Shown here: positions 12,183 to 62,211 of the stretch, piece by piece
Layout: every line of letters begins with the position of its first letter
How positions within the stretch are numbered: position 1 is the stretch's first letter
Assembly: GCF_001571345.1 (NCBI RefSeq)
Contig: NZ_BCTP01000007.1
Location: forward strand, 1-64,000
DNA length: 64,000 nt
DNA from: Komagataeibacter xylinus NBRC 15237
GTDB taxonomy: Bacteria > Pseudomonadota > Alphaproteobacteria > Acetobacterales > Acetobacteraceae
Direction: 5' to 3'
Program-made: the position numbers and the translations under genes
The notes under the pieces: model-generated
Seen by the model: only the letters and a program-made list of their open reading frames with translations
Told to the model about the DNA's origin: nothing
Database searches by the model: none

Positions 12183-12263
12183 AAAAGTTTTTGGGTGCCG
12201 CCTTTTTTCAAAAAGGCGGCGTTTTTTCAAAGCTTTTTGAAAAAAGCTTCACCAAAAACCTTT
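12183..12263 (+). repeat. Dispersed palindromic element, copy 1
   Basis: About 81 bp with inverted ends (ATAAAAGTTTTTGG and CCAAAAACCTTTAT). They enclose two hairpins: GCCGCCTTTTT/AAAAAGGCGGC, then AAGCTTTTT/AAAAAGCTT. It lies between two convergent genes (GT4 and ppa), where its U-rich stems could terminate from both sides. Confidence 0.85.
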
Positions 12264-12276
12264 ATCCGGTAGCGTC

Positions 12277-12804
12277 TTACTTGCCAGCGACGGCCTTGAC
12301 GGATTCAAGGATCACTTCGCCCGCGACCTTCTTGTCGGCCCAGCCTGCAACCTTGACCCACTTGCCCTTTTCCAGGTCCTTGTAGCGGGTGAAGAAGTGC
12401 TCGATCTCCTTGAGCACGATCTCGGGCAGGTCCTCGAGCTTTTCCACGTTGGAATAGTACGGGTGCACCTTGTCGTGCGGCACGCAGATGATCTTTTCGT
12501 CCTGGCCGCTCTCGTCTTCCATGCGCAGCACGCCGATGGGGCGCGCGCGCACCACAACGCCGGGCACCACGGCGGCGGGCATCAGCACCAGCGCATCGGT
12601 CGGGTCGCCATCGGCGGCCAGCGTGTTGGGAATGAAGCCATAGGCGGCCGGATAGACCATGGGCGTGAACAGGATGCGGTCCACCACCAGCGCGCCGCTA
12701 TCCTTGTCGATCTCGTACTTGACGCCTGAACCCTGCGGAATTTCGATCACGACGTTGATGTCGTTGGGTACGTCCTTGCCGGGGGAAATCTTCGATACGT
12801 CCAT
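12277..12804 (-). CDS. ppa: Inorganic pyrophosphatase
   Basis: A 175-residue family I soluble pyrophosphatase that hydrolyses diphosphate to two phosphates and pulls biosynthetic reactions forward. The signature region reads ADGDPTDALVL with the metal-binding aspartates. KYEIDKDSGALVVDR and YGFIPNT match the family core, and the length equals the bacterial norm. It is monocistronic, convergent with the glycosyltransferase gene, and separated from it by repeat copy 1. Confidence 0.97.
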   Translation of the reverse strand: MDVSKISPGKDVPNDINVVIEIPQGSGVKYEIDKDSGALVVDRILFTPMVYPAAYGFIPNTLAADGDPTDALVLMPAAVVPGVVVRARPIGVLRMEDESGQDEKIICVPHDKVHPYYSNVEKLEDLPEIVLKEIEHFFTRYKDLEKGKWVKVAGWADKKVAGEVILESVKAVAGK

Positions 12805-13067
12805 TGCTGTTCAGGCCTCCTGCTGCCTGTATGTGCCGTTAAGGGCCGCGCCAGAGTGTCGCGGCATGAATTAACGGGGGATGACGGTATATCTCCCCGC
12901 GTTTCCTGTGCAAGTCATGTTCCGTGGCAGGGCGGTCTACCATGAGCCAGATCATGAACGTGTTTTTTTTATGGCGATATCGCCTGTATCACCGAAAAAA
13001 TTACGCACAAAAAGCCACGTTGATCTTGCCAAAACCCGCGACATGCGCGAGATCAGGGGCTGCCTGC

Positions 13068-13141
13068 GCGCCCGTAGCTCAATTGGTTAGAGCGGGCCGC
13101 TCATAACGGCTTGGTTGCGGGTTCAAGTCCTGCCGGGCGCA
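13068..13141 (+). tRNA. tRNA with CAT anticodon, probably tRNA-Ile2 (lysidine type)
   Basis: A full cloverleaf can be drawn. The acceptor stem GCGCCCG/CGGGCGC is perfect, the D-stem is GCTC/GAGC, the anticodon loop is CTCATAA, and the T-stem GCGGG/CCTGC carries loop TTCAAGT. The discriminator is A and CCA is not encoded. CAT could be elongator Met or Ile2. The C4-G69 and C5-G68 pairs and the TTGG variable region match Ile2 as recognised by TilS, so Ile2 is favoured. It has no initiator-type features. Confidence 0.9.
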
Positions 13142-13239
13142 GGCTTTTCAGCATGCGGCGCGGCGGGCATGCCCCGGTGTAGCCCACGCCGCGCGGTGAC
13201 TTGACCATTTTCTCATCAGTTTATCAGGAGCCGACCGTC

Positions 13240-14919
13240 ATGGCCGCCACGCAATATGTCTATGTGATGAAGGACCTGACCAAGGCGTATCCGGGTGGGC
13301 GTGAGGTCTTCAAGGGCATTACCCTGTCCTTCCTGCCCGGCGTCAAGATTGGCGTGCTTGGCGTCAACGGCGCCGGTAAATCGACGCTGCTCAAGATCAT
13401 GGCTGGCGTGGAAAAGGAATTCGGCGGCGAGGCCTGGGCCGCCGAGGGCGCGCGCGTGGGCTACCTTGAGCAGGAACCCAAGCTCGACGAGAGCCTGACG
13501 GTGGGCGAGAACGTGGCGCTGGGCTTTGGCCCGCTGAAAAAGGCCGTGGACCGCTTCAACGAGATCTCGATGAAGTTCGCCGAACCCATGTCGGATGACG
13601 AGATGAACACCCTGCTGGCCGAACAGGCCGAACTGCAGGAAGTGATCGACGCGGGCGATGGCTGGGAACTGGACCGCAAGCTCGAGATCGCGCTCGAGGC
13701 CCTGCGCTGCCCGCCCGCTGACAGCCCCGTTGAAAAGCTCTCCGGTGGTGAGCGCCGCCGCGTGGCCCTGTGCCGCCTGCTGCTTGAAAAGCCCGACCTG
13801 CTGCTGCTCGATGAGCCGACCAACCACCTTGATGCGGAAAGCGTGTCCTGGCTGGAAAAGACGCTGCGTGACTATGAAGGCACCGTGATGGTCATTACCC
13901 ATGACCGTTACTTCCTCGATAACGTCACCAACTGGATTTTGGAACTCGAGCGTGGCCGTGGCTATCCGTTCGAGGGCAACTACTCCTCCTGGCTGACCCA
14001 GAAGCGCAAGCGCCTGGCGCAGGAGGAAAAGGAAGAGAGCGCACGCCAGCGCGCCCTTGCCGCCGAGCAGGAATGGATCGGCTCCTCGCCCAAGGCCCGT
14101 CAGGCCAAGAGCAAGTCGCGTATCGCGCGCTATGAGGAAATGCTGGCCCAGAATAACGAGAAGGCGAATGGCGTGGCCGACATCGTCATTCCGCCCGGCC
14201 CCCGCCTTGGCAGCACCGTGATCGAGGCCGAGGACCTGCGCAAGGGCTTTGGCAACCACCTGCTGATCGATGACCTGAACTTCAAGCTGCCGCCGGGCGG
14301 CATCGTGGGCGTGATCGGGCCGAACGGCGCGGGCAAGTCCACCCTGTTCAAGATGATCATGGGGCAGGAAACGCCCGATAGCGGCAAGCTGATCATTGGT
14401 GACACGGTCAAGCTCGGTTACGTGGACCAGTCGCGCTTCAGCCTTGATGATGACAAGACCGTATGGGAGGAAATCTCCGGCGGGACCGACGTGATCTACC
14501 TTGGCAAGCGCGCCGTGCCGTCGCGCGCCTATGTCGGCGCCTTCAACTTCAAGGGTGCTGACCAGCAGAAGAAGGTGGGCGTGCTCTCGGGTGGTGAGCG
14601 CAACCGCGTGCATCTGGCCAAGATGCTGCGGCAGGAAAGCAACGTGATCCTGCTTGATGAGCCGACCAACGACCTTGATGTCGATACGCTGCGCGCGCTG
14701 GAGGAGGCCCTGGCCGAATTCGCGGGCTGTGCTGTCATCATCAGCCATGATCGCTGGTTCCTTGACCGTCTGGCCACCCACATCCTGGCCTTTGAGGGTG
14801 ATAGCCACGTTGAGTGGTTCGAAGGCAACTTCCAGGCCTATGAGGAAGACAAGCGCCGCCGCCTTGGCCCGGACGCGACCGAGCCGAGCCGCATCAAGTA
14901 CCGCCCCATCGCGCGCTGA
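13240..14919 (+). CDS. ettA: Energy-dependent translational throttle EttA (ABC-F ATPase)
   Basis: A 559-residue ABC-F protein with two ATPase domains and no membrane part. EttA binds the ribosomal E site and gates the first elongation steps according to ATP/ADP ratio. Domain 1 has Walker A GVNGAGKST and LSGGERRRVALCRLLL with LLLLDEPTNHLD. The linker includes the charged arm QKRKRLAQEEKEESARQRAL. Domain 2 has GPNGAGKST and LSGGERNRVHLAKML with ILLDEPTNDLD. The start at 13240 (MAATQYVYVMKDL) matches the usual EttA N-terminus and has CAGGAG nine bases upstream; an upstream TTG is less likely. Confidence 0.95.
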   Translation: MAATQYVYVMKDLTKAYPGGREVFKGITLSFLPGVKIGVLGVNGAGKSTLLKIMAGVEKEFGGEAWAAEGARVGYLEQEPKLDESLTVGENVALGFGPLKKAVDRFNEISMKFAEPMSDDEMNTLLAEQAELQEVIDAGDGWELDRKLEIALEALRCPPADSPVEKLSGGERRRVALCRLLLEKPDLLLLDEPTNHLDAESVSWLEKTLRDYEGTVMVITHDRYFLDNVTNWILELERGRGYPFEGNYSSWLTQKRKRLAQEEKEESARQRALAAEQEWIGSSPKARQAKSKSRIARYEEMLAQNNEKANGVADIVIPPGPRLGSTVIEAEDLRKGFGNHLLIDDLNFKLPPGGIVGVIGPNGAGKSTLFKMIMGQETPDSGKLIIGDTVKLGYVDQSRFSLDDDKTVWEEISGGTDVIYLGKRAVPSRAYVGAFNFKGADQQKKVGVLSGGERNRVHLAKMLRQESNVILLDEPTNDLDVDTLRALEEALAEFAGCAVIISHDRWFLDRLATHILAFEGDSHVEWFEGNFQAYEEDKRRRLGPDATEPSRIKYRPIAR

Positions 14920-14995
14920 TTCCATTTGCCATCGGCTTCATTATCTGCCTTCAATAAAGGCCGGGTTTTACGCACCGGCCCTGGAGGAGGCAGTA

Positions 14996-15526
14996 ATGGG
15001 ATGTCGATATCGCATACAGACAGGCCACCTGCAGCTTGATCCGGTCTCATGGACCGACCTTGAGGATGTGGTGCGGCTCAAGGCCAGCGCTGGCGTGACC
15101 GGGCGGCTCGCGGGCGGCGTGTGCAACCGCGTGCTGAGCGAGCAGGACATGCTGACCGATCTCATGACCTGGGGCCGCGAGGGCGTGGGCATGTTTACCG
15201 TGCGCCAGCAGGGGCGGTTCATCGGGCTGGCAGGCGTGCAGCCTTCCACTACCGTGCCTGACTGCCATGAATTGCAGTTCACCATGGTCGCCGATGCGCG
15301 TGATACGGCGCTATCGCGTGAGGCAACAACCACGGCTCTGGCCTTTGCGCATGATGCAGGGGTGAGCCGGGTCATTGCCTATGTGCGCGCGCACGACATT
15401 GTGGCCCGGCAGGTTTTTGGCGGGGCGGGCATGAGCGTGTGCCCGGACCGGCCAGAACGATGTGGGCCGGATATTCTGCTCTATCATAGCCTGCGGGGCG
15501 CGCCTGCATGGGCCAGCCTGCATTAA
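14996..15526 (+). CDS. GNAT-family N-acetyltransferase
   Basis: A 176-residue protein of the GNAT fold used to acetylate small molecules or protein N-termini. The pattern is weak but consistent: an N-terminal helix-strand region, a central GRFIGLAGVQP strand, and ATTTALAFAHDAGVSRVIAYVRAHDIVARQVFGGAGM, which is typical of the CoA-binding and C-terminal parts of RimJ/RimL-like enzymes. The start is fixed by GGAGGAGG seven bases upstream. The substrate is unknown. Confidence 0.75.
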   Translation: MGCRYRIQTGHLQLDPVSWTDLEDVVRLKASAGVTGRLAGGVCNRVLSEQDMLTDLMTWGREGVGMFTVRQQGRFIGLAGVQPSTTVPDCHELQFTMVADARDTALSREATTTALAFAHDAGVSRVIAYVRAHDIVARQVFGGAGMSVCPDRPERCGPDILLYHSLRGAPAWASLH

Positions 15527-15561
15527 AGATTTTTTGAAAACAACTCATTGATAAAAAATGG

Positions 15562-15642
15562 TAAAAGTTTTCGGGTGTCGTCTTTTTTCAAAAAGATGGC
15601 GTTCCCTGAAGCTTTTTGAAAAAAGCTTCACCAAAAACTTTC
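15562..15642 (+). repeat. Dispersed palindromic element, copy 2
   Basis: Same layout as copy 1. Its first hairpin is GTCGTCTTTTT/AAAAAGATGGC, which still pairs throughout through G-U pairs and one compensated pair. The second hairpin GAAGCTTTTT/AAAAAGCTTC is intact. It lies between two genes pointing the same way. Confidence 0.85.
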
Positions 15643-15779
15643 TTATGATTCTGGATGTTTTCCGGGCTGAGTTTTCAGGCAGTCTCTCAATACGTGGCTG
15701 GTTGCGTACGGAAGAAATCGTTTCTTATTCGCATTATTTCTGTAAACTCCCTGCCGTGGTTCTCCGGGGAGATTGACGG

Positions 15780-16763
15780 GTGAAAATACTTTCTGCGGCG
15801 CTGGCCTGCCTGTTGTGTTCCGTGGCGGTGTCCGCCCACGCGGCCGAGCCGGTGCTGGTCATTCATGGTGGGGCGGGCGTGATCCGCAAGGACATGACGC
15901 CCGCGCGTGAAAAAGCGGTGACGGCCGCCCTCAAGCGCGCCTTACGCACCGGTTACAAAAAACTGAAAACCGGCGGCCCTGCGGTCGAGGCGGTTGAAGC
16001 CGCCGTGCAGGTGCTTGAGGATGACCCGGAATTCAACGCAGGCAAGGGGGCTGTTTTCACGCATGATGGCCATAACGAGATGGATGCCGCGATCATGGAT
16101 GGCGCAACCTTGCAGGCCGGGGCCATTGCGGGGGTGACGCATGTGCGTAACCCCATAACGCTGGCGGCGGCCGTAATGGCGCATTCACCCCATGTGTTCC
16201 TGATTGGCGATGGTGCGGAAGCTTTTGCCAGAACGCAGGGCGTGGCGCTGGTTGACCCCGCCTATTTCCGCACCGACCGGCGCTGGGCGCAATTGCAGGA
16301 GGCGCTGGAGAAAGACCGGCAGAAGCAGGAGAAAGAAGCGGACACCCATCATGGCACGGTGGGCGCCGTGGCCCTTGACCGTAACGGGCATCTGGCGGCA
16401 GCGACCTCCACAGGGGGGCTGACGGACAAGATGTGGGGCCGCGTGGGGGATTCGCCGCTGATCGGGGCAGGCACATACGCCAATGCGGGCTGCGCCATGT
16501 CAGGCACGGGGTGGGGCGAATATTACATTCGCACGGTCGCCGCCCACGAAATCTGCATGCGGGTGACGATGATGCACCAGCCTCTGGCGCAGGCAGCGGA
16601 TGACGTGATCAACCACGAGATTCCGGCGCTCGGCGGTGATGGCGGCGCGATCCTGCTCGATGCCAAGGGCAATATTGCCATGCCTTTCAACACCGATGGC
16701 ATGTACCGGGGCTGGATCACGCATGATGGCGTGGCCCATGTTGCCATTCTCAAGGGGACATGA
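15780..16763 (+). CDS. iaaA: Isoaspartyl peptidase / L-asparaginase (Ntn hydrolase), exported
   Basis: A 327-residue precursor read from a GTG start, with a Sec signal peptide (KILSAALACLLCSVAVSAHA, then AEP). It belongs to the threonine-type N-terminal nucleophile hydrolases that self-cleave into two subunits and hydrolyse isoaspartyl dipeptides or asparagine. The cleavage/nucleophile region is HHGTVGAVALD, where the Thr becomes the new N-terminus. The substrate loop is GDSPLIGAGTYA and the late motif is GGDGGAILLD. The signal peptide implies a periplasmic place. It is monocistronic and convergent with the AT-rich pair that follows. Confidence 0.92.
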   Translation: MKILSAALACLLCSVAVSAHAAEPVLVIHGGAGVIRKDMTPAREKAVTAALKRALRTGYKKLKTGGPAVEAVEAAVQVLEDDPEFNAGKGAVFTHDGHNEMDAAIMDGATLQAGAIAGVTHVRNPITLAAAVMAHSPHVFLIGDGAEAFARTQGVALVDPAYFRTDRRWAQLQEALEKDRQKQEKEADTHHGTVGAVALDRNGHLAAATSTGGLTDKMWGRVGDSPLIGAGTYANAGCAMSGTGWGEYYIRTVAAHEICMRVTMMHQPLAQAADDVINHEIPALGGDGGAILLDAKGNIAMPFNTDGMYRGWITHDGVAHVAILKGT

Positions 16764-16858
16764 ACCCTTGGGCTGGCAGCGTGCATGGCTCACCTGATTA
16801 TGGGGCAGGATACCATTTCACATAAGATGGTGTGTTGAGGGATGATGTTTCATTGCTG

Positions 16859-17134
16859 TTATTTTGATGAATTGACAGGATGGGGCAGGACGCACTCGCG
16901 CCCTTTGTCCTGGCATATGGCCCGGAACCGCCAGGTTTCCATATCGGGATTGGCTTCCCTCAATGCATCGTAATCGTAAAGCTCCCTGGAATTGTATTCT
17001 GTGGTCGATATGTTTTTCTTTATGAAATAGTTTATGTAGTTTTCACTTGCAGTCGGATGCATGGCCTTGGAGAGGACAAACATATCAAAAGCAGAAATGA
17101 TAATAAAAAAAGTAATTATCAATTTATTTGACAT
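16859..17134 (-). CDS. Small exported protein of unknown function
   Basis: 91 residues with a hydrophobic N-terminus (NKLIITFFIIISAFDMFVL) that would act as a signal peptide or anchor, then a polar domain with two cysteines near the end (ICQDKGRECVLP). The base composition is clearly AT-richer than the surrounding genome. It starts 18 bp downstream of the mannosyltransferase stop, with AAAGG before the start, so the two form an operon and were probably acquired together. No family was recognised. Confidence 0.6.
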   Translation of the reverse strand: MSNKLIITFFIIISAFDMFVLSKAMHPTASENYINYFIKKNISTTEYNSRELYDYDALREANPDMETWRFRAICQDKGRECVLPHPVNSSK

Positions 17135-17152
17135 ATTACTGTGCCTTTCTGC

Positions 17153-18235: not shown

Positions 18236-18816
18236 TTTATGTTCTCTTTTTCTTGGTCATTATCCGAAATCTTACAATTTTACGTAGCGCTCAATTATGT
18301 ATAATGGGCATTCCGTTTTTTATCGAAGAAGCAACCAAGATATTCCTCAATAATGCCTGTTGCCACGAGATGCATGCCGCCGGGCATGGACCGTATCCAC
18401 ATCATGGCAGGCGTCGATGCGTTGGATCATGAGGTCAGGCACCGCCTGCGGGCTGGAATTGATGATGACCGCCACATTGATGCCCGGTGCGTGGCCCGGC
18501 TGATACTGGCCGTGTCATCGGGCGCGCTGTCATTGACACAGGCAATTTCCCCCACCCTGCCGGTCCGCTGCATGAGATGGGAAAGACGCAATTTTTCCCT
18601 TCCATTGTAACGCGGTAGTGAGGATTGTTGTGATGTCATGAAACGCGAGACGATATGGACATGAGGTTAATGACGCAGAGGTGCGATTTGAGCATATTTT
18701 GTGTGTTATCGCAAAAAACATCAGTGCGGAGCTTCCGTGCAGCGGACGCAGACAGCTTTCCCCACTGCGCCATGAGCTTTTAGCTGCCACAAAGCGCCAA
18801 GGTGACCATCAGCATT
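18236..18816. other. Intergenic region, partly AT-rich, with a possible decayed coding fragment
   Basis: The first 110 bp are AT-rich and probably hold the promoter of the mannosyltransferase. Between about 18350 and 18640 composition returns to GC-rich. The minus strand shows coding-like stretches in two frames (VGEIACVNDSAPDDT, then NVAVIINSSPQAVPDLMI), as expected for a frameshifted remnant. No family was recognised. Confidence 0.3.
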
Positions 18817-18846
18817 AAAAAAGCCGGTATGAAACCGGCTTTTTTA
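18817..18846 (-). terminator. Rho-independent terminator of the mla genes
   Basis: The stem AGCCGGT/ACCGGCT is flanked by A-run and T-run. On the minus strand it ends in six U, 37 bp after the mlaC stop. Confidence 0.85.
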
Positions 18847-18883
18847 TGTTTCCTGCCTGCCCCGCCACCGGCGGGGAAGGATT

Positions 18884-21629: not shown

Positions 21630-21994
21630 GTGTCCTACCGCCTCGTTCATATGCATCACCACAAGGACGCGGGCCATACCATATGGGCCAGACCATATAA
21701 AGCGGCACGTCGGTCCAGCAGCCCGCATGACCTGCCGCAACCATGTGGCTCTGACCCGGTTTTACGGCGGCATCATGGCGCATGCTCACGCCTGGGGGCA
21801 ATCAAATCCATGCTCGGGCAGGGCCTGTAACCGCCAGTCAGCGGCATTGCCATGGCTGTTATGGCGGGCAGGCACAAAATTTCCCCCCCCTCGCGCGTGG
21901 ATGGAATTGTGGCTGGCGGGTCGCGTGCCCTGGCATGCGTATCCCCTTGCCAGATGCGGGGCGAACACCTATGTTGGAAAGTGCAGGAGGGGCT

Positions 21995-22275
21995 TGCCCC
22001 TTGGCTATGGCGATAAACGGCGCGTGGAATAAGTGTTGTGGACCCGGGGGCGGTACCCGGCGTCTCCACCAGTTTCCCTCCCAGGTGGGGGATATGGGGA
22101 CGAAACAGGCTCGACACGCATGGTAAAGACCCGCCTTTTGCCCGGCATTGTACCACCGTTATCGGGCTAAATCACAAGTGCCAACGATAACTCAGAGGTG
22201 CTCGCTGTCGCTGCATAAGCGATAAGCGCGGTTCGGGAGGGCACCGGGCAACAGAAGCCCTCCCACCTTTTCTTC
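21995..22275 (+). ncRNA. ssrA: Circularly permuted two-piece tmRNA
   Basis: The acceptor half comes first in the DNA and ends in the tRNA-like GGAC-CCGGG-loop-CCCGG-CGTCTCCACCA at 22040-22071. After about 24 bp the coding half begins at 22096 with GGGGACGAAACAGGCTCGAC. GGGGAC pairs with GTCTCC of the acceptor end, and GGCTCGAC matches the conserved tmRNA 5' segment. The tag frame at 22180-22218 reads ANDNSEVLAVAA followed by TAA. A stem GGGAGGGC/GCCCTCCC (22235-22264) and TTTTCTT close the gene. This order is the known alphaproteobacterial permutation, in which the loop is excised to give two RNAs. The 5' boundary of the acceptor piece is approximate. Confidence 0.93.
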
Positions 22276-22459
22276 TGCTCATGTTAGGTTGATGACGCGG
22301 TATCCGCTTCGTGAAGGGATGCCGCGCGCCCGTGGCTTGCCATGCCATGAAGTTTGACGCACAGCTTGGTGCTGTGGCACGGCGTGGTCCGAACCCGCAT
22401 GTCTGCAAAAATCCGTTCCGGGTCAGCATTGCCCGGGCGGATGTACGGAGAAGTCCGAA

Positions 22460-25258: not shown

Positions 25259-25266
25259 TATCGGAT

Positions 25267-25349
25267 AAAAGTTTTTGGGTGCCGCCTTTTCTCAAAAAGG
25301 CGGCATTTTTTCGAAGCTTTTTTGAAAAAAGCTTCACCCAAAACTTTTG
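25267..25349 (+). repeat. Dispersed palindromic element, copy 3
   Basis: Inverted ends AAAAGTTTTTGGGTG and CACCCAAAACTTTTG enclose GCCGCCTTTT/AAAAGGCGGC and GAAGCTTTTTT/AAAAAAGCTTC. It fills almost the whole gap between the convergent VOC and PEBP genes. Confidence 0.88.
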
Positions 25350-25907: not shown

Positions 25908-26135
25908 TTACCAGTTCTGGCTGATGAGCCAGAATTCTTCCGAGGTCAGGGTAATGACCTGATCGTTGTTCTTGCTCTCGGCAGCGGCGCGGGCCAGGGC
26001 CTCGATGCGCTGGATCATGATGGTCTTGCGCTGGTGGGCCTCGCTGCGGTCCTTTTCTTCCACCGTTTCGAGCACATGCAGCGCGGTCTTGCAGGCGCGG
26101 GCAATACGGACGGCATCAAGGGCGGCGTAGGACAT
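25908..26135 (-). CDS. Small hypothetical protein
   Basis: 75 residues starting MSYAALDAVRIARACKTALHVLETVEEKD, mostly helical and charged and ending SEEFWLISQNW. The start is chosen because GGAG lies nine bases upstream. The same frame stays open further 5' but there runs through repeat copy 4 and is unlikely to be coding. No family was recognised. It is 63 bp upstream of the PEBP gene in the same direction, so the two may be cotranscribed. Confidence 0.65.
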   Translation of the reverse strand: MSYAALDAVRIARACKTALHVLETVEEKDRSEAHQRKTIMIQRIEALARAAAESKNNDQVITLTSEEFWLISQNW

Positions 26136-26287
26136 GGCATAACTCCATAAATTTCGCGGCATCCGGCTGCGCCGGGTGCGGGCGGGAACATTCCCGTGCG
26201 GGAATCGCTGCCGCATTGTGGCTTTCCCGGCTGCGTCTGTCCAACACCGCCATGCGGCAGACGCACGAAGCGTATTGAAAAACGGAA

Positions 26288-26369
26288 TGAAAGTTTCCGG
26301 GTGCCGCCTTTTTTCAAAAAGGCGGCGTTCCCTGAAGCTTTTTGAAAAAAGCTTCACCAAAAACTTTTC
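26288..26369 (+). repeat. Dispersed palindromic element, copy 4
   Basis: TGAAAGTTTCCGGGTG and CACCAAAAACTTTTCCA form the ends. The inner stems are GCCGCCTTTTT/AAAAAGGCGGC and GAAGCTTTTT/AAAAAGCTTC. This is the only copy between divergent gene starts (25908 gene and queA), so it cannot serve simply as a shared terminator. Confidence 0.88.
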
Positions 26370-26476
26370 CATGATTTGCGGCATATGCCGTGATCAGGCG
26401 TTTTCAGCAGTTTCTTTGTAAGGGCCATGAGAGTTCATGCTGGCAACCGGGGTGCGGATTCCGTAAAGGGAGCCGC

Positions 26477-30914: not shown

Positions 30915-30940
30915 GGTTCTTTTTTGTAAAAAAAAGAACC
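30915..30940. other. A/T-rich hairpin
   Basis: GGTTCTTTTTT and AAAAAAGAACC form an 11-bp stem 17 bp after the J-domain gene stop. Together with repeat copy 5 it sits between convergent genes and may help termination on either strand. Confidence 0.55.
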
Positions 30941-30965: not shown

Positions 30966-31036
30966 GAAGTTTTTGGTGAAGCTTTTTTCAAAAAGCTTCA
31001 AGAAGGGCCGCCCCTGAAATAAAGGCGGCGCCAGGG
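30966..31036 (-). repeat. Dispersed palindromic element, copy 5 (degenerate)
   Basis: Reverse orientation. GAAGTTTTTGGTG is followed by GAAGCTTTTTT/AAAAAGCTTC, then GGCCGCC/GGCGGC with an enlarged loop, and a diverged right end. It lies between the J-domain gene and convergent mrp. Confidence 0.75.
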
Positions 31037-31038
31037 TT

Positions 31039-32169
31039 TCATTTCTTTTTGTCCAGCAGGCGGCGCAGCGTAGCCCCCACCGTATGGGCCAGCGCGCGAT
31101 AGGCCTGGCCTGCCGGGCTGTCGGGGGCCGCGATGACAATGGGCGCGCCCTCATCGGCGCTGGCGCGGATATTAGCGAGCAGCGGGATCTCGCCCAGAAA
31201 GGGCACGCCCGTTTTTTCGGCTTCCGCCCGTGCCCCACCGTGGCCGAACAGTTCGGTGCGGTGGTTGCAGTTGGGGCAGCAGAAATAGGACATGTTCTCG
31301 ACAATGCCCAGCACCGGCACGTTCATCTTCTCGAACATGGCAACACCGCGCCGGGCATCGAGCAGGGCAATGTCCTGCGGGGTGGAGACGATAATGGCTC
31401 CGGCCAGCGCGGTTTTCTGCGCCAGGGTCAGTTGCGCATCGCCCGTGCCGGGCGGCATGTCCACCACCAGCACGTCAAGCGCGCCCCATTCCACATCGCC
31501 AAGCAACTGGCCAATGGCGCCCATCACCATCGGCCCGCGCCAGATCATGGCCTTGTCCTCTTCCACCAGCATGCCGATCGACATGGCGGAAATACCCCAT
31601 TTATGCGGCGGGATCAGGCGGCCATCGCGCACTTCGGGCTGGCCGTTTACACCCATCATGCGTGGCAGGGAGGGGCCATGCACGTCGGCATCCATCAGCC
31701 CTACCTTCAGCCCTTCCAGCCCCAGCCCCACGGCAAGGTTGACCGCCGTGGTGGACTTGCCAACGCCCCCCTTGCCCGAGGCCACGGCAATCACCACGCC
31801 CACACCGGCGGGCAGCGGGCCGGTGGGCGCTTTCCTGCCCGCCTTGCCACCACCAAGGTTGAGCGGGCGGTGACCACCGCCTGCCGCTGGTGCAGGGGCA
31901 GCGGGCGCCGGGGCCGGGCGGTGCGCGGTCAGGATGACACTGGCCCCCGTGCTGCCGGGAACCGCACCAACAAGGGCGCGTTCGAGTGCGGGTAGCAGGG
32001 ATTGCAGGCGTTCGGCCCGCGCGCGGTCGGTCGCAATGGCTACGTGGAGCACGCCGTCACGCATCATGAAGGCATCAAGGCTGCCCAGTTCCGCAACGCT
32101 TGCGGCCCTGTCGTCCGTGCGCACCTGTCGCAGCACGGTTTCTATGGTTGCCCGGTCGGGACTGGTCAT
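31039..32169 (-). CDS. mrp: Mrp/ApbC-family iron-sulfur cluster carrier ATPase
   Basis: A 376-residue soluble P-loop protein that carries or inserts iron-sulfur clusters. An N-terminal MIP18-like domain (about 1-90) is followed by a proline/alanine linker and a deviant Walker A, ASGKGGVGKSTTAVNLAV. LMDADVHGPSLPRMMG, VVDMPPGTGDAQLTL and the cluster-binding CCPNCNH (CxxC) complete the family pattern. It is transcribed alone, convergent with the J-domain gene. Confidence 0.95.
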   Translation of the reverse strand: MTSPDRATIETVLRQVRTDDRAASVAELGSLDAFMMRDGVLHVAIATDRARAERLQSLLPALERALVGAVPGSTGASVILTAHRPAPAPAAPAPAAGGGHRPLNLGGGKAGRKAPTGPLPAGVGVVIAVASGKGGVGKSTTAVNLAVGLGLEGLKVGLMDADVHGPSLPRMMGVNGQPEVRDGRLIPPHKWGISAMSIGMLVEEDKAMIWRGPMVMGAIGQLLGDVEWGALDVLVVDMPPGTGDAQLTLAQKTALAGAIIVSTPQDIALLDARRGVAMFEKMNVPVLGIVENMSYFCCPNCNHRTELFGHGGARAEAEKTGVPFLGEIPLLANIRASADEGAPIVIAAPDSPAGQAYRALAHTVGATLRRLLDKKK

Positions 32170-36375: not shown

Positions 36376-37842
36376 ATGCTGAACGAAACAACCCTCACCA
36401 CCCTTCCCGCTGGCGTGCAGGCGCTGGCCTACAGGCGTGAGGCGGTGGGGCGAGGGATCGTTCATTTTGGCGTGGGTAATTTCTTTCGCGCGCATGAGGC
36501 CTGGTACGTCAACCAGTGCCTCGGCCTGCCGGGGCAGTCGCAATGGGGCATCGTGGGCGTAGGGCTGAACGGTGGCCCGCGCGGGGAGGCCAAGGCGCGG
36601 CAGTTCCAGCAGCAGGACTGCCTGTATTCCCTGACCGAGGTGGCGGCCGATGGCGCGCGCACCATCTCGATGATCGGGGCATTGCGTGAATACCTGCTCG
36701 CCCCAGCCGACCCCGAGGCCGTGCTGGCCCGCCTGGCCTCACCCGAGACCCGCATCGTCAGCATGACGATTACCGAAGGCGGCTACAATATTGAAGAGGA
36801 GACCGGGCTTTTCCGCCTTGATGAGGCCGGTGTGAGCGCGGACCTTGCCCATCCGCGCAACCCGGCCACCGTGTTCGGTTACGTGGTGGAGGGGCTGCGC
36901 CGCAGGCGCGAGGCGGGCACGCCGCCCTTTACCGTGCTTTCATGCGATAACCTGCGCAGCAATGGCCATGTCGCGCATGCGGCCTTTGTGGGCTATGCCC
37001 GCGCGGTTGACCCCGATCTGGCCGACTGGATCGAGGCCAATGTGACCTTTCCATGCTCCATGGTTGACCGCATCACGCCCGGCGTGGATCGGACCACGCG
37101 CCAGGCGCTGAACGAGGCCAGCGGACTGGACGACGACCTGCCCGTGCTGGCGGAGGATTTCAGCCAGTGGGTGCTGGAGGATAATTTCTGCAATGGCCGC
37201 CCCGCGCTGGAAAAGGCAGGCGTGCAGTTTGTGGATGACGTGGCGGGCTATGAGCAGGTGAAGGTGCGCATGCTCAATGCCGGGCACATCCTGCTCGGTG
37301 CCGCGGGGCTTCTGCTGGGCTACCGCTACGCGCATGAAACCGTGGCGGATGCCGACCTCGAGCGCCTGGCCAACGCCTACTGGATGTGTGACGCCATGCC
37401 CCAGATCGATGCGCCCGCTGATTTTGATCTTGATGTCTATCGCAGGCGTCTGCTCAGTCGTTTCTCCAACCAGGCGGTGGCCGATACGCTTTTGCGGATC
37501 TGTAGCGACGGAGCCTCGAAAGTGCGGGTGTTCTGGACCGATACGGTGCGCCGCTCGCTGGAGAGCGGGCATGATCTGGGCCGCATCGCCTTTGGCATTG
37601 CCGCCTATCTGGAAATGCTGCGCGGCCGTGACGAGAAGGGCGAGAGCTACGCCCCGCTCGAACCCACGCTCGATGCCGATGACATGGCGCTGGTCAATGA
37701 GGCCAATCTTGCGGCAGCCCTTGCCCTGCCTGCCTTTGATGGCTGGCGCGACATGGATTCGATCGCGCTCGATGCCGCCGTGGTCAAAACGCGCCATGCC
37801 ATTCGTGAACGCGGCGTGCGGGCGGTGATGCAGGCGCTGTAA
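36376..37842 (+). CDS. Mannitol dehydrogenase-family polyol oxidoreductase
   Basis: A 488-residue long-chain polyol dehydrogenase. The Rossmann entry is IVHFGVGNFFRAHEAWY. The catalytic pattern K-x4-N-x2-H appears as KVRMLNAGHILLG, with SCDNLRSNGHVAHAAF and TPGVDRTT in between. Members are mannitol 2-dehydrogenase, fructuronate reductase and arabinitol dehydrogenase. Mannitol/fructose interconversion is the most likely reaction in an acetic acid bacterium, but specificity is not certain. Its TAA stop lies at the edge of repeat copy 6. Confidence 0.9.
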   Translation: MLNETTLTTLPAGVQALAYRREAVGRGIVHFGVGNFFRAHEAWYVNQCLGLPGQSQWGIVGVGLNGGPRGEAKARQFQQQDCLYSLTEVAADGARTISMIGALREYLLAPADPEAVLARLASPETRIVSMTITEGGYNIEEETGLFRLDEAGVSADLAHPRNPATVFGYVVEGLRRRREAGTPPFTVLSCDNLRSNGHVAHAAFVGYARAVDPDLADWIEANVTFPCSMVDRITPGVDRTTRQALNEASGLDDDLPVLAEDFSQWVLEDNFCNGRPALEKAGVQFVDDVAGYEQVKVRMLNAGHILLGAAGLLLGYRYAHETVADADLERLANAYWMCDAMPQIDAPADFDLDVYRRRLLSRFSNQAVADTLLRICSDGASKVRVFWTDTVRRSLESGHDLGRIAFGIAAYLEMLRGRDEKGESYAPLEPTLDADDMALVNEANLAAALALPAFDGWRDMDSIALDAAVVKTRHAIRERGVRAVMQAL

Positions 37843-37882
37843 AAGGTTTTTGCCGAAGCTTGTTTCAAAAAGCTTCGGCGCC
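37840..37882 (-). repeat. Dispersed palindromic element, copy 6 (truncated)
   Basis: Only one end (TAAAAGGTTTTTGCC) and the GAAGCTTGTTTC/AAAAAGCTTC hairpin remain. It spans the 22-bp gap between convergent stop codons and extends into the 3' end of the GNAT gene. Confidence 0.75.
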
Positions 37883-42659: not shown

Positions 42660-42741
42660 ATGAAAGCTTCCGGGTGCCGCCTTTTGTCAGAAAGGCGGCA
42701 TTTTCCTGAAGCTTTTTGGGAAGAGATTCACCAGAAACGTC
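42660..42741 (+). repeat. Dispersed palindromic element, copy 7 (degenerate)
   Basis: GCCGCCTTT/AAAGGCGGC is intact, but the second hairpin (GAAGCTTTTTGGG..GATTC) and the right end have decayed. It lies between opgH and a convergent gene. Confidence 0.75.
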
Positions 42742-42771
42742 TATGGTTTCAGGGGAATGGCTGAAGGCCGG

Positions 42772-45371: not shown

Positions 45372-45458
45372 ATCAAAAGTTTTTGGTGAAGCTTTTTTCA
45401 AAAAGCTTCCGAAGAACGTCGCCTTTTTGCAAACAGGCGGCGCCCAAAAACTTTTGAT
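45372..45458 (-). repeat. Dispersed palindromic element, copy 8
   Basis: The cleanest ends of the family: ATCAAAAGTTTTTGG and its exact reverse complement. They enclose GAAGCTTTTTT/AAAAAGCTTC and GTCGCCTTTTT/AGGCGGC. It lies between convergent genes that already have their own terminators on both sides. Confidence 0.9.
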
Positions 45459-54234: not shown

Positions 54235-54245
54235 ACCGCACATTG

Positions 54246-57032: not shown

Positions 57033-57865
57033 TGCCCATGACCGCACCCGTCTCCCGCCCGCATGCCGTCAGGCTTGTGGTGTCCGATATCGATGGCACC
57101 CTTATTACGCCCGAGCGCGAACTCACCCCCGCTGCCCACAAGGCGGCGGCTGACCTGCGGGCGGCAGGCATAAAACTCAGCCTGATCAGCAGCCGCGCCC
57201 CACGCGGCATGATGCAGTTCGTGCGCGCGCTTGATATCCATGAGCCGATCGCGGGGCTGAATGGCGGGCTGATCTGTGATCCTGACGGCACCATCCGTGA
57301 GCGCCTGTCGCTTGCGCCTGCGGTTGCGAAACAGGCGGTTGAATTCCTCATCAGCCACGGGGTCGAGCCGTGGCTGTTCATTGGCCATGACTGGCTGGTG
57401 CGCCGTGATGACACGCCGCAGGTCGCCCATGAGCGCGAGGTGGTGCAGACCACGCCCGTGCGGGTGGATGACTTCGCGGGCCATTATGAAAACGTGGGCA
57501 AGATCATGGGCGTGGCCAGTGACCCGGCGGCCCTGCCGGGCGTGGAACGCGACCTTGCAAACTTGCTTGGGGGCAAGGCGAGCGTACACCAGTCATCACC
57601 CATTTACCTTGATATTACGCACCCGCAGGCGAACAAGGGCTATGCGGCAAAAGAACTGGCCAAATTGCTGGATATTGATATCCGGGATACGGCATGCATC
57701 GGGGATATGAACAACGACATTCCCATGCTGAAGGAAGCGGGGGTCAGCATCGCGATGGGCAACGCGCTTGATAACGTCAAGGCCCATGCCCGTTTCGTGA
57801 CCCGGCCCAACACCAATGATGGCTGGGCCTACGCGATCGAAAACTTTGTCCTGCCCCGCCCCTGA
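57029..57865 (+). CDS. HAD superfamily (Cof-type) sugar-phosphate phosphatase 1
   Basis: A 278-residue type IIB HAD hydrolase. Motif I is VVSDIDGTLITPE, motif II is LISSRAPRG, the cap is in the middle, and motifs III/IV appear in NKGYAAKELAKLL and CIGDMNNDIPMLKEAGVSIAMG. Members dephosphorylate sugar phosphates or flavin intermediates. Translational coupling to zwf (ATGA) and a second paralogue next door tie it to pentose-phosphate metabolism. The substrate is unknown. Confidence 0.9.
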   Translation: MMPMTAPVSRPHAVRLVVSDIDGTLITPERELTPAAHKAAADLRAAGIKLSLISSRAPRGMMQFVRALDIHEPIAGLNGGLICDPDGTIRERLSLAPAVAKQAVEFLISHGVEPWLFIGHDWLVRRDDTPQVAHEREVVQTTPVRVDDFAGHYENVGKIMGVASDPAALPGVERDLANLLGGKASVHQSSPIYLDITHPQANKGYAAKELAKLLDIDIRDTACIGDMNNDIPMLKEAGVSIAMGNALDNVKAHARFVTRPNTNDGWAYAIENFVLPRP

Positions 57866-57893
57866 GGCGCGCGGCACAGAAGGGAGAGGCAAC

Positions 57894-58724
57894 ATGCCCC
57901 ACGACGCAGCCGCAACGCCAGCAGGCCAGATCAGGCTGGTACTGGCCGATGTGGATGGCACACTGGTCACGAAGGACAAGATCCTGACCCCACGCGCCAT
58001 CCGCGCGGTCGAGCGCCTGCGCGAGCGGGGCATCCTTTTCACCATCACCAGTGGCCGCCCGCCCAAGGGCATGAAGATGGTGATCGACCCGCTGAAAATT
58101 TCCGAGCCGATTGCAGGCTTCAATGGCGGCATGATGGTCAAGCCCGATTTTACCGTGATCGAGGCCCGCACCCTGCCAACTGACACCGCGCGCAAGGTGA
58201 TCGGCATCATCCGCGACCACAGGGCCGACCCATGGGTGTATAACGGCAATGACTGGATCGTCTCGAAACTCGATGCGCCGCATGTGGCGCGCGAGCAGTG
58301 GACGGTCAAGTTTCCGCCCGTGGTGGGCGATGTGGACGCGAAGCTGGACCAGGTGGTCAAGATCACCGGGGTGAGCGATGACCTTGAACTGATGAAGCGC
58401 CTTGAGCACGACCTGCAGCAGGCGCTGGGCGATACGGCATCCGCCGCGCTGTCACAGCCGTACTATGTGGATGTGACCAATAAAGACGCGAACAAGGGCG
58501 GCGTGGTGATGACGCTCGAGCGCCTGCTGGGCATTCCCGCCAGCCAGATGGTGACGCTGGGCGACCAGCCCAATGATGTGCTGATGTTCCGCAAGAGCGG
58601 CATGTCCATCGCCATGGGCCAGGCCAGCCCGGAGGTGCAGAAGCAGGCGACCCATGTTTCCACCTCGTGCGAGGAGGAAGGATTCGCCAATGGAATCGAG
58701 AAATTCGTGCTGGGGGATGCGTGA
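57894..58724 (+). CDS. HAD superfamily (Cof-type) sugar-phosphate phosphatase 2
   Basis: A 276-residue paralogue of the preceding gene: VLADVDGTLVTKDK, FTITSGRPPKGMKMV, EPIAGFNGGMM and MVTLGDQPNDVLMFRKSGMSIAMG. In motif IV the usual GDxxND-type acids appear as GDQPND. AGGGAGAGG supports the ATG at 57894. It almost touches pgl. The pair probably arose by tandem duplication and may clear side products of the pathway; this is inference. Confidence 0.9.
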   Translation: MPHDAAATPAGQIRLVLADVDGTLVTKDKILTPRAIRAVERLRERGILFTITSGRPPKGMKMVIDPLKISEPIAGFNGGMMVKPDFTVIEARTLPTDTARKVIGIIRDHRADPWVYNGNDWIVSKLDAPHVAREQWTVKFPPVVGDVDAKLDQVVKITGVSDDLELMKRLEHDLQQALGDTASAALSQPYYVDVTNKDANKGGVVMTLERLLGIPASQMVTLGDQPNDVLMFRKSGMSIAMGQASPEVQKQATHVSTSCEEEGFANGIEKFVLGDA

Positions 58725-58725
58725 G

Positions 58726-59466
58726 ATGACCGGTGGACATGATGTGAAAACGGGCGCGATGGTTGTCCTGCCCGATGCCGAGGCCATTGCCCAGCACATG
58801 GCGAAATGGCTGACGGAACAGGCGCTGGCGAAAAAGGGGAGGCCGTTCGTAATCGCCCTTTCGGGCGGGTCCACGCCAAAGCGGCTGTACCAGATCCTGG
58901 CCTCCGCTGAATATCGCGACCGCTTTCCGTGGGCGAACACGCAGTTCTTCTTTGGCGATGAGCGTTTCGTGCCCGAGAGCGATGCGGCCAGCAATTACAA
59001 CATGGTCGAGACCGAGATGCTGGCGCACGTAAAGGTGCCGCCCGCCAACGTGCACCCCATGCTCACATCGGGCGACCCGGCGCAGGCGGCGGCAAAGTAT
59101 CAGGCGGAACTCGAAGCGGTTTATGGTGGCAAGACGCTGGAACCCGGCCGCCCGCTCTTCGATGTGGTGATGCTGGGGCTGGGTGATAACGGGCATACCG
59201 CATCTCTCTTTCCGCGCCAGCCGGTGCTGGAGGAGAAAAAGCTCTGGGTCTCGACCTGCGTGCCCGATGATGCGCCGCATACGCGCCTCACGCTGACCTA
59301 TCCCGCCATCCATTCCAGCCGCCATGTGGTGTTCATGCTGGCGGGTGCAGGCAAGCGTGAAGCTTTCGCCAGGGTGCGCGCGGGCGACCCGGCGGAGCCT
59401 GCCAGCCATATCACCAGCGAGGGTGAACTCATCTGGCTTATGGACAAGGCGGCGGCGGGGCAATAA
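58726..59466 (+). CDS. pgl: 6-phosphogluconolactonase
   Basis: A 246-residue enzyme of the DevB/Pgl family that hydrolyses 6-phosphogluconolactone, the product of Zwf. FVIALSGGSTPKRLYQIL, QFFFGDERFVPESDAASNYNM and VMLGLGDNGHTASLFP are family hallmarks. The ATG at 58726, just after the HAD stop and with GGGGGA upstream, is preferred; an ATG at 58717 would overlap. Confidence 0.94.
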   Translation: MTGGHDVKTGAMVVLPDAEAIAQHMAKWLTEQALAKKGRPFVIALSGGSTPKRLYQILASAEYRDRFPWANTQFFFGDERFVPESDAASNYNMVETEMLAHVKVPPANVHPMLTSGDPAQAAAKYQAELEAVYGGKTLEPGRPLFDVVMLGLGDNGHTASLFPRQPVLEEKKLWVSTCVPDDAPHTRLTLTYPAIHSSRHVVFMLAGAGKREAFARVRAGDPAEPASHITSEGELIWLMDKAAAGQ

Positions 59467-59564
59467 GTGCGTGGCGTATCGTATCGGCGTGATACGATAC
59501 AGGGCCAAATAAAAACGACGGGGCACCCATGGCCGGGATGCCCCGCAGGAAGAGGAAGCAGCGC

Positions 59565-60269
59565 ATGTCCACCCAGAACGCGGACCCACGGGCAGAACTG
59601 AAGCGGCAGGCCGCGATCGAAGCCGCCGACATGGTCAAGGACGGCATGGTGGTCGGCCTTGGCTCGGGCAGCACGTCGGCCTTCATGATCGAGGAGCTTG
59701 GCCGCCGCTGGGCGGATGGCCTGCGCTTTAGTGCCATTCCCACATCCGAGCGCTCGGCCGAGCAGGCGCGCTCGCACGGCATCAGGCTGGTCACCTTCGC
59801 CACCCATCCGCAGATCGATATCGACATCGATGGCGCCGATGAGGTCGAGCGGGGCTCGCTCAACCTGATCAAGGGGCTGGGCGGCGCGCTGTTCCGCGAG
59901 AAGATCGTGGCCGCCGCCGCGCGTAAATTCGTGGTGGTGGTGGACGACAGCAAGCTCGTCGACCGCCTTGGCGCGCGCGTGCCCGTGCCGGTGGAAGTCG
60001 CCAATTTCGGCTGGACCAGCACCGCCCGCCAGCTTGAAGCGCTTGGTGCCAAGATTACCCAGCGGCTGGACCGGGGCGGCAATGTGTTCGTGACCGATGG
60101 CGGTAACATGATCCTTGACTGCCACTTTGGCCCGATTGCCGATTCTGCCTCCCTGCAGCGCCAGCTTGAGCAGATCGTGGGCGTGATCGAGACCGGGCTG
60201 TTCATTGGCCGCACGTCGGAGGTGATCGTGGCCACCGCCGATGGCCTGCAGCGGCTGGGCGTGGCATGA
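59565..60269 (+). CDS. rpiA: Ribose-5-phosphate isomerase A
   Basis: A 234-residue enzyme interconverting ribulose-5-phosphate and ribose-5-phosphate. Family motifs are GMVVGLGSGSTSAFMIEELG, DIDIDGADEVERGSLNLIKG, GGALFREKIVA and TDGGNMILDCHFGPI. AGGAAGAGGAAG precedes the ATG at 59565. It overlaps gntK by 4 bp. Confidence 0.95.
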   Translation: MSTQNADPRAELKRQAAIEAADMVKDGMVVGLGSGSTSAFMIEELGRRWADGLRFSAIPTSERSAEQARSHGIRLVTFATHPQIDIDIDGADEVERGSLNLIKGLGGALFREKIVAAAARKFVVVVDDSKLVDRLGARVPVPVEVANFGWTSTARQLEALGAKITQRLDRGGNVFVTDGGNMILDCHFGPIADSASLQRQLEQIVGVIETGLFIGRTSEVIVATADGLQRLGVA

Positions 60270-60826
60270 CCGGCCGCGCCTTGCAGGACCAGGGCATCAG
60301 GCCGCTGGTCTTGGTCATCATGGGGGTTTCGGGCTGTGGCAAGACCACGCTGGCCGAAGGGCTGCACAACGTGCTGGGCTGGCCCTATCAGGAAGGCGAC
60401 CTGCTGCACCCGGCCGCCAATGTGGAAAAAATGGCCGCGGGCATTCCCCTGACCGATGCCGACCGCCTGCCCTGGCTTGAGCAATGCCATAAATGGCTGC
60501 TGGGGCGCGTGGCGTCGGGGCAGGGGGGCATCCTGACCTGCTCGGCGCTCAAGCGCTCCTACCGTGATCTGCTGCGCGCGGACGGGGCGGCGGATATCGT
60601 GTTCATCTACCTCGAAATTCCCGAGGACACGCTCTACGACCGCCTCAGGCGCAGGCGCGGGCATTACATGCCGCCCAGCCTGCTGCCCAGCCAGCTTGCC
60701 ACACTCGAGCCGCCCACGGCGGATGAGCACCCCATCGTGGTGCATCTTGAGGAAACGCCCGCCGCCCTCATTGCCGAGACGCTGGGAATTCTGGCGCAGA
60801 AATTCCCTGAACGCAAAGGGGGCTAG
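60266..60826 (+). CDS. gntK: Gluconokinase
   Basis: A 186-residue P-loop kinase that phosphorylates gluconate to 6-phosphogluconate. Walker A is GVSGCGKTT. GDLLHPAANVEKMAAGIPLTD is the gluconate-kinase substrate signature, followed by CSALKRSYRDLLR. It allows gluconate, abundant in acetic acid bacteria, to enter the oxidative pathway at Gnd. Its stop is directly followed by the phosphatase start. Confidence 0.96.
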   Translation: MTGRALQDQGIRPLVLVIMGVSGCGKTTLAEGLHNVLGWPYQEGDLLHPAANVEKMAAGIPLTDADRLPWLEQCHKWLLGRVASGQGGILTCSALKRSYRDLLRADGAADIVFIYLEIPEDTLYDRLRRRRGHYMPPSLLPSQLATLEPPTADEHPIVVHLEETPAALIAETLGILAQKFPERKGG

Positions 60827-61300
60827 ATGACCGCCCGCCCTGCCGTTCTGTTCGTGTGCATGGGCAATATCTGCCGCTCGCCGCTGGCCGAGGCTGCCTT
60901 CAGGCAGGCCGCCGGCGCGGCAGGGCTGGAGGTGGTGGTCGATTCGGCGGGCACGGGCAACTGGCATGCCGGCTCGCCACCCGACCGGCGGGCCCGTGCC
61001 GTGGCGCGCCAGCATGGCATCGACATGGGCCGTTACCGTGCCCGGGTGGTCGCGCCTTCCGATTTTACCCGCTTTACCCACATCATCGCCCTCGATCACG
61101 CCAACCTTGCGCATCTGCGTGCCATGCGGCCAGAGGGGGCGCGTGCCGAACTGTCCCTGCTGCTCGATCACGTGCCCGGCAGGCAGGGGGAGGCGGTGGC
61201 CGATCCGTATTATGGCGATGCCAGCGGCTTCGAGACCACATGGCGCGATGTCAGCGCCGGGGCGCAGGCGCTGGTCAGGCGCCTGCTGGCCCGGCCATGA
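60827..61300 (+). CDS. Low-molecular-weight protein-tyrosine-phosphatase family enzyme
   Basis: 157 residues. The P-loop C-x5-R-S is FVCMGNICRSPLAEA, and the general acid motif is VADPYYGDASGF (DPY-type). The family includes tyrosine phosphatases and also protein-ribulosamine/fructosamine phosphatases. It starts directly after the gntK stop and overlaps a fructosamine-kinase-like gene by 4 bp. This pairing favours a deglycation role over capsule regulation; no tyrosine kinase (Wzc-like) gene is near. Confidence 0.92.
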   Translation: MTARPAVLFVCMGNICRSPLAEAAFRQAAGAAGLEVVVDSAGTGNWHAGSPPDRRARAVARQHGIDMGRYRARVVAPSDFTRFTHIIALDHANLAHLRAMRPEGARAELSLLLDHVPGRQGEAVADPYYGDASGFETTWRDVSAGAQALVRRLLARP

Positions 61301-62118
61301 GCCGCCTCGCCCGCCATGCCGCCACGCTGCTGGGCTCAGGGCTGTGGAACTGGCATCCGCTTCAGGGCGGCGACATTGCCCAGACCCTGCTGGTCTACCT
61401 CAATGACGGGCGCACGGTGGTGGCCAAGAGTGGCCCTGACCCGCTGGCCGAGGCCGCCATGCTGCGCGCCATGGGCGAAACCGGTGCGCCGGTGCCCGCT
61501 GTGCTGGCCGTGGATGCGGATGCATTGGTGATGGAATACCGGCCCATGGAGGGCACGCTGGCTACCTGCTGGGGCGATCTGGGCCGCGTGCTGGCGCAGG
61601 TGCATGAAGCCCGCCCCGAAGGTGGCATGATCCGCTATGGCTGGGCGGGGGATTACGCCCTTGGCGCGGTCAGCGTATGCAATACATGGGCCGATCGCTG
61701 GCCTGAATTCTGGGCCGCGTACCGCCTGGGCGTACATCTGGCGCATGTGCCCATTGACGTGGCCCGCCGCCTTGAACAGCTCATGCGCCGCCTGCCCGAC
61801 CTGCTGCCGGCAACGCCCGCGCCCGCCCTGCTGCATGGCGATCTGTGGAGTGGCAACGTGCTGGTGGCGCATCGGAGCGTGACCGGCCTGATCGACCCGT
61901 GCTGCTATTACGGGCATGTGGAGGTGGATCTGGCAACCGTGGGCGTGTTCTCGCAGCCGCCAGCGGCGTTCTACATGGCCGGGGGCCCGCTGGAGGCAGG
62001 GTATGCGGTGCGTTTTGCCATTTACCGGCTGTGGATCGCGCTAGTGCACCTGCGCCTGTTTGGCGCGACATACCGGCCCATGGTGGCGCAGTATCTGGAT
62101 GATGCCGGGGCAGGTTGA
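61297..62118 (+). CDS. Fructosamine/ribulosamine 3-kinase-family protein
   Basis: 273 residues. The N-terminal lobe has GGDIAQTLLVYLNDGRTVVAK. The catalytic lobe has PALLHGDLWSGNVLVAH (HGDLWSGN, typical of the FN3K family) and LIDPCCYYGHVEVDLATV (metal-binding Asp). These kinases phosphorylate sugar amines on glycated proteins so that the adduct decomposes. It is last in the pentose-phosphate operon and coupled to the LMW phosphatase. Repeat copy 9 follows. Confidence 0.92.
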   Translation: MSRLARHAATLLGSGLWNWHPLQGGDIAQTLLVYLNDGRTVVAKSGPDPLAEAAMLRAMGETGAPVPAVLAVDADALVMEYRPMEGTLATCWGDLGRVLAQVHEARPEGGMIRYGWAGDYALGAVSVCNTWADRWPEFWAAYRLGVHLAHVPIDVARRLEQLMRRLPDLLPATPAPALLHGDLWSGNVLVAHRSVTGLIDPCCYYGHVEVDLATVGVFSQPPAAFYMAGGPLEAGYAVRFAIYRLWIALVHLRLFGATYRPMVAQYLDDAGAG

Positions 62119-62128
62119 GGCTAAAAAG

Positions 62129-62211
62129 CAAAGGCTTCCGGGTGCCGGCTTTTTTCAAGAAGGCGGCGTTCTTCTGAAGCTTTTTGAAAAAAGCTTCACC
62201 AAAAACTTTTT
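62129..62211 (+). repeat. Dispersed palindromic element, copy 9
   Basis: GCCGGCTTTTTT/GAAGGCGGC with one mismatch, then GAAGCTTTTT/AAAAAGCTTC, then CACCAAAAACTTTTT. The left end has decayed. It lies between the kinase gene and convergent tRNA-Asp. Confidence 0.82.

Follow-up and report, generated by a model that had tools for sequence, protein, structure and literature searches.

Nine intergenic elements of some 80 bp are scattered over a 64,000-nt stretch of Komagataeibacter xylinus NBRC 15237 (contig NZ_BCTP01000007.1, positions 1 to 64,000; hereafter the window), and they raise the question of what kind of repeat they represent and why most of them stand where two genes end against each other. 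The window element was found to belong to a dispersed repeat family of Acetobacteraceae, with a strong bias in position, the anatomy of a miniature inverted-repeat transposable element (MITE) in part of its copies, an occupancy of gene junctions that is conserved while orientation flips, and T-rich tracts at the end of either strand. The reading to which we lean, with a little more belief than doubt, is that of a MITE-linked palindromic repeat retained at gene ends as a bidirectional intrinsic terminator.

All nine copies listed in an earlier note on this DNA were recovered at the positions given there, in both orientations. They are listed below together with a hairpin remnant, P1 denoting the outer helix of the element.

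12183..12263, plus strand: full core copy (P1 arms, hairpin 1 and hairpin 2), convergent junction 12172/12277
15525..15687, plus strand: copy with degenerate outer MITE arms (terminal inverted repeats), core at 15562-15642, tandem junction
25267..25348, plus strand: full core copy, convergent junction; core inverted in the relatives G008 and G015
26288..26368, plus strand: full core copy, 5' of queA, between divergent starts
30966..31046, minus strand: copy with degraded left P1 arm, convergent junction
30915..30940, no strand assigned: remnant of a second hairpin type (GGTTC..GAACC), same junction as the 30966 copy
37840..37876, minus strand: half copy consisting of hairpin 2 and a single P1 arm, which overlaps the ends of both adjoining genes
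42660..42742, plus strand: full core copy with mismatches, convergent junction
45375..45456, minus strand: full core copy, convergent junction; orientation opposite in the relatives G003 and G018
62129..62211, plus strand: full core copy, between a plus-strand gene and the minus-strand tRNA-Asp (62263-62339)

The two hairpins that had been claimed for the full copies were present in eight of the nine, 37840 being a half copy. The claim that all copies lie outside genes likewise held for eight, while the half copy overlaps both adjoining gene ends (by ~3 and ~12 nt if taken as 37840-37876, and by more with the borders of the covariance model). The count of seven convergent copies agreed with our own gene calls, the other two being 15562 (tandem) and 26288 (between divergent starts). 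The remnant hairpin at 30915-30940, of a type belonging to other Acetobacteraceae genera, also occurs in G003, G004 and G006.

To establish the extent of the family, a covariance model (R1) built from the eight fuller window copies was searched in the own genome and in Acetobacteraceae, and many further copies were found. In the own genome there were at least 150 by this model, and a pattern for hairpin 2 allowing up to two mismatches occurred 205 times, the reversed control not once. All 18 Komagataeibacter relatives searched carried the family, and so did, under stricter filters (E 0.001), 44 of 299 Acetobacteraceae genomes in 21 of 102 genera, the own genome included; outside Acetobacteraceae, within the same class, one of 24 genomes matched, at E 0.009. 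The pyrophosphatase encoded in the window is 100% identical to that of K. xylinus CGMCC 21569, and of 80 named loci surrounding the gene for this enzyme, eight had copies at E 1e-4 (four Komagataeibacter, two Novacetimonas and two Acetobacter). Neither of the two outcomes that had been named as refuting the family, a lack of further copies or of conserved spacing, was encountered. The remark that no named family could be recognised also stood: Rfam gave tmRNA and tRNA matches only for the whole window and sub-threshold matches only for five element loci, none above the gathering score, plasmid and phage collections, from which close records may be missing, gave no match to the element, and no description was found in a literature search, outside which most subscription journals lay.

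The core of ~100 nt consists of the outer helix P1 (AAAAGTTTTTGG..CCAAAAACTTTT) around two hairpins and is bordered, across 120 copies, by ~10 nt of A-rich sequence on the left and ~8 nt of T-rich sequence on the right of P1, so that transcripts of both strands would finish with a U-rich stretch. In particular, the last 12 nt on the two strands (four P1 and eight outer bases) contained 7.3 and 7.6 T, compared to 2.5 in other non-coding DNA (n=120), and the eight bases outside P1 alone contained 3.9 and 4.1. A stable fold followed by a U-rich tract, the arrangement of a bidirectional intrinsic terminator, was thus found on both strands. Of the eight window copies folded on the canonical strand, against 200 dinucleotide shuffles each, seven were more stable than every shuffle (z from -3.7 to -6.9), the exception being the copy at 62124 (z -1.7). 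Moreover, both partners had changed in 13 of 31 base pairs, compared to 3.2 in shuffles, and counted by cells in 27, compared to 5.5, figures inflated by an alignment fitted to the structure model and by the relatedness of the sequences. Hairpin arms differ in sequence across genera, with their pairing kept.

The three-way junction proposed for the element was the minimum-energy fold of the canonical strand in five of eight window copies (12178, 15557, 25262, 26283 and 45370) and not in the rest. Beyond the window it held for Komagataeibacter and, on at least one strand, for 20 of 30 cross-genus copies, which comprised all 15 of the kind near the window's and only five of the 15 with CTTC/GTTC hairpins, the others of this second kind forming one long hairpin. 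As a universal fold the three-way junction was rejected, a single long hairpin often being the structure of lowest energy in distant copies. Units from the distant genera (G062, G160 and others) consist of nothing but the core and have the ends CAAAYGGATRAAAG..CTTTYATCCRTTTG. A version of ~137 nt with an extra insert between the two usual hairpins was seen at L111 and L191 (G226).

The position of the copies was surveyed over 461 kb of the own genome (the window and L142-L161), in which 401 genes were called by a home-made coding model and 52 distinct copies were counted at E 0.01, halves included. None lay wholly within a called gene; 33 were convergent, 16 tandem and two divergent, and one stood at a contig edge. 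Expressed by junction, 32 of 52 convergent junctions had a copy, compared to 16 of 295 tandem and two of 51 divergent ones, and nine of the 20 copy-free convergent junctions offer <20 nt of room. If 0, 60, 100 or 150 nt upstream of gene starts are barred to insertion, 4.4, 7.0, 9.2 and 12.2 of 51 copies would be expected at convergent sites, while 33 were observed, an excess at every barred length that exceeds the prediction of insertion followed by promoter purging. Among the copies in tandem pairs, 15 of 16 were closer to the 3' end of the upstream gene. A larger set of 122 copies, some of them mutually orthologous (61 from the own genome, 60 from other members of the genus and one from the neighbouring genus g97), included 119 that could be placed, of which 82 were convergent, 30 tandem and seven divergent.

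Occupancy was then compared over 104 kb and 95 junctions with the four close relatives G003, G004, G008 and G018, where 312 of 380 comparisons were usable, the remainder either having a flanking gene unmatched or being rearranged or far away. A copy was also present in 45 of 57 comparisons at element-bearing junctions and in none of 255 at element-free ones, and some of the 12 scored as absent were degraded copies below the threshold. The 45 shared occupancies comprised 33 in the same orientation, 10 flipped and two double sites in reversed order, so that single-copy pairs differed in orientation in 10 of 43. The flip at 25261 affects a core whose flanks remain 0.90 and 0.93 alike, while at 15557 neither flank is alike across the flip. 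Orthologues ranked first over paralogues in seven of 31 same-orientation pairs and in none of nine flipped pairs. Furthermore, similarity was higher in the core than in its flanks for 26 of 35 pairs and for 10 of 14 loci. Comparison with orthologous junctions, as the earlier note had suggested, also showed that some junctions occupied in the close clade have no element in distant species; in particular, at the junction of the 12183 copy, nine of 11 aligned distant species have a gap of 46-78 nt, and two have 180 and 197 nt. A base-exact empty site for a core-only copy was not found, and a near-clean one was seen in a single case, for the full-length copy at C7 101472-101622 against G004. As a separate observation, the G004 junction orthologous to window positions 15526-15822 contains an insert of ~1 kb resembling an insertion sequence (IS), whereas the own genome carries the MITE copy there.

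When flanks were compared, an inverted repeat emerged outside the core, at a constant distance from it, which delimits full-length units of 150-165 bp (GAGACTGTTTGAAAA..TTTTCAAACAGTCTC). There were 24 distinct full-length copies with both ends within four mismatches of GAGACTGTTTGAAAA, a second row for the same copy at L292 and the row at L340, whose right end is spurious, having been excluded from an earlier list. The 3-nt flanks were identical in 13 of the 24 (12 TNA and one TTG), TNA made up 39 of the 48 flanks, and in seven of the 24 the flanking TNA was exactly the stop codon of the neighbouring gene, compared to 11% of free TNA sites (p 0.015; eight of 25 and p 0.005 if L340 is included). 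With the two spurious rows excluded, 11 of the 21 full-length copies that could be placed were convergent. As a whole, 94 of 120 copies had neither MITE arm and 26 had at least one, and among eight window copies tested, the arms were recognisable only at 15525-15687. The designation as a miniature mobile element therefore applies to the 150-165 bp subset with inverted ends and TNA duplications and not to the core-only majority.

Insertion sequences of the IS1031 group end in GAG, and MITEs of this group (IS5 family) share with the window family their GAG ends, a 3-bp TNA duplication and the lack of coding capacity, while differing in that most window-family copies show the core only. An IS of 930 bp, the length of IS1031, occurs with a TNA duplication at five loci in the genus, and its copy at L369, the only one read through the frame, encodes an IS5-type transposase of 278 amino acids. 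It is the IS with the nearest ends found, yet the MITE ends (GAGACTGTTTGAAAAGT) are alike with its ends (GAGCCTGATCCGAAAGT) at 12 of 17 places only. Published work gives a TNA target with a 3-bp repeat as the rule of the IS1031 group (PMC12016507) and K. xylinus as an organism from which the group is known (PMC6559022). Since distant genera have the core alone and most copies lack arms, we think that the core probably predates the MITE in which it is contained in Komagataeibacter. Other units with MITE-like ends were noticed: one of 112 nt adjoining an element copy at L191, one with a single inner hairpin at L340 ~434-550 (G012), and an internally deleted one at L318 (own genome, C19).

According to the reading that we prefer, some Komagataeibacter copies would ride in a 150-165 bp MITE with IS1031-group ends and a TNA target duplication, and a transposase like that of IS1031, acting in trans, may have partly spread them. 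Such units would quite frequently insert precisely at a stop codon, and the gene would be unharmed because the target duplication restores the codon. Transposition would in this way place copies at stop codons and gene ends, where those able to end transcription both ways would be retained, because RNA of either strand presents a strong fold and then a U-rich tract; with both strands functional, orientation may flip. Termination by the element, selection for that termination and mobility through a transposase in trans are all predictions from sequence. The alternative roles offered in the earlier note, a two-way terminator or an mRNA 3' stabiliser, both fit position and anatomy well, which do not by themselves separate the two.

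Several results weigh against the terminator reading. Element-free intergenic DNA is no less conserved than the element (mean 0.886 vs. 0.86), and the convergent bias is absent in the distant genera, where 31 copies comprised 18 tandem, six divergent, five inside called genes and two convergent, gene calls being rough there. Terminators composed of a hairpin plus a T run are not depleted where the element is present (10 of 60 convergent 3' ends with it and four of 24 without), and a detector of such terminators, which requires a GC stem, fired on 15 of 44 copies on the canonical strand and on three of 44 on the other. On the sense strand of tandem copies, G.U and A.C showed no strand signal (39 vs. 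34), the wobble leaning one way in P1 and hairpin 2 and the other way in hairpin 1. Moreover, no IS bounded by two MITE ends was found at the end sites inspected in G000, G003 and G018, which covered all but a few of the 36 own sites, and no autonomous partner with MITE ends appeared at 30 PF13340 loci or at a further 33 loci. At the own contig C62 (L332/L317), a MITE-type end with one mismatch stands ~1.05 kb behind a PF13340 transposase frame, with no second MITE end within four mismatches; it is possibly a remnant of the partner IS.

Of the other explanations, one holds that the repeat is purely selfish, its copies being functionless products of IS1031-type insertion at TNA, stop codons included, and of purging from genes and promoters. 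The exact adjoining of stop codons by seven of 24 full-length copies suits it, as does the absence of a convergent bias in distant genera, and since the full-length, presumably younger, copies are already convergent in 11 of 21 cases, part of the position bias may stem from entry. We nevertheless regard it as unlikely, because the convergent excess persists with 150 nt upstream of starts barred (33 vs. 12.2) and because the core, which covaries and is more alike than its flanks, is well kept although 94 of 120 copies show no trace of the MITE arms. A similarly low probability is assigned to a role as a 3'-end protector, in which Rho or other factors would terminate downstream, exonucleases would digest the RNA as far as the fold, and their progress would be blocked by the core in either orientation. 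The strong folding of both strands in most copies, their location just behind stop codons and the poor response of the canonical detector would all be expected from it, but the A-rich and T-rich tracts that border the core, seen on both strands, are necessary to a bidirectional intrinsic terminator and would be unneeded for a mere block.

Template switching at near-palindromes during replication might also generate covariation and inversions, free of any selection on RNA, and the core inverted between well-kept flanks at 25261 and the orthologues that are often no closer than paralogues (first in rank in seven of 31 same-orientation and none of nine flipped pairs) are consistent with it; it leaves gene-end placement and conserved occupancy unexplained, however, and is considered quite improbable. 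As for a classical repetitive extragenic palindromic (REP) family, or bacterial interspersed mosaic element (BIME), moved by a REP-associated tyrosine transposase (RAYT), the resemblance lies in short extragenic palindromes downstream of genes with hundreds of copies, and a REP survey describes palindromic, extragenic repeats that are mostly downstream of genes and favour convergent and tandem sites elsewhere (PMC3733652). The same source gives CGTC repeats as lacking in Acetobacteraceae (PMC3733652). The window family differs in being longer, with two hairpins inside an outer helix, and in the lack of the two hallmarks of REPs: the Y1/RAYT transposase (PF01797) was detected in none of 17 element-rich genomes, while the same search was positive in five of 14 named control genomes, and no GTAG or CGTC tag appeared in the end logos of 120 and 31 copies. 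The absence of RAYT, which may also reflect gene loss, indicates that the element is not a classical REP system, and the term REP used in the earlier note finds no support in its strict sense, this origin being barely credible.

The preferred reading, that of a bidirectional intrinsic terminator, has counterparts elsewhere. Intrinsic terminators acting both ways between convergent genes, in which, as in the window core, an A tract and a U tract frame a stable fold, were reportedly described in E. coli by Ju et al. in 2019. Terminators of Z. mobilis are enriched between convergent genes and have A tracts upstream (PMC7566282). Unlike these, the supposed terminators of the window are copies of one dispersed repeat family. 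A review on MITEs considers a terminator role possible and illustrates it by SPRITE, a family of small dispersed intergenic repeats, like that of the window, which is called terminator-like (PMC10969869). SPRITE belongs to another phylum and is set apart here by description, without sequence comparison, the window family having a two-hairpin core and a quantified share of the convergent junctions surveyed.

A broader proposal, advanced tentatively and with more doubt than belief, is that one domesticated repeat family serves as the general convergent-gene terminator of a genus, each junction keeping a copy by selection while individual copies are replaced and inverted over time, because nothing but the symmetric fold and the tracts would count, orientation and ancestry being immaterial. 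If the terminator reading is right, a single repeat would close off about three fifths of the sampled convergent gene pairs in a cellulose-producing bacterium; few examples would show as clearly how a mobile element can become a regular component of a genome, and the matter would be of relevance to strain builders who site genes beside such junctions. The filled, flipped and empty junction pairs constitute ready material for testing selection on bidirectional terminators.

Finally, two other features of the window were recorded. The stretch at 26136-26476, between the gene at 25908-26135 (minus strand) and queA, which holds the 26288 copy, contains blocks conserved in the genus (GGGAATCGC.., TCTGTCCAA and GATTCCGTAAAGG) and gave no Rfam match above threshold; the blocks may perhaps belong to an unannotated small RNA or leader. 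On the plus strand, positions 21943-22309 comprise a permuted transfer-messenger RNA (tmRNA) of the alphaproteobacterial type.

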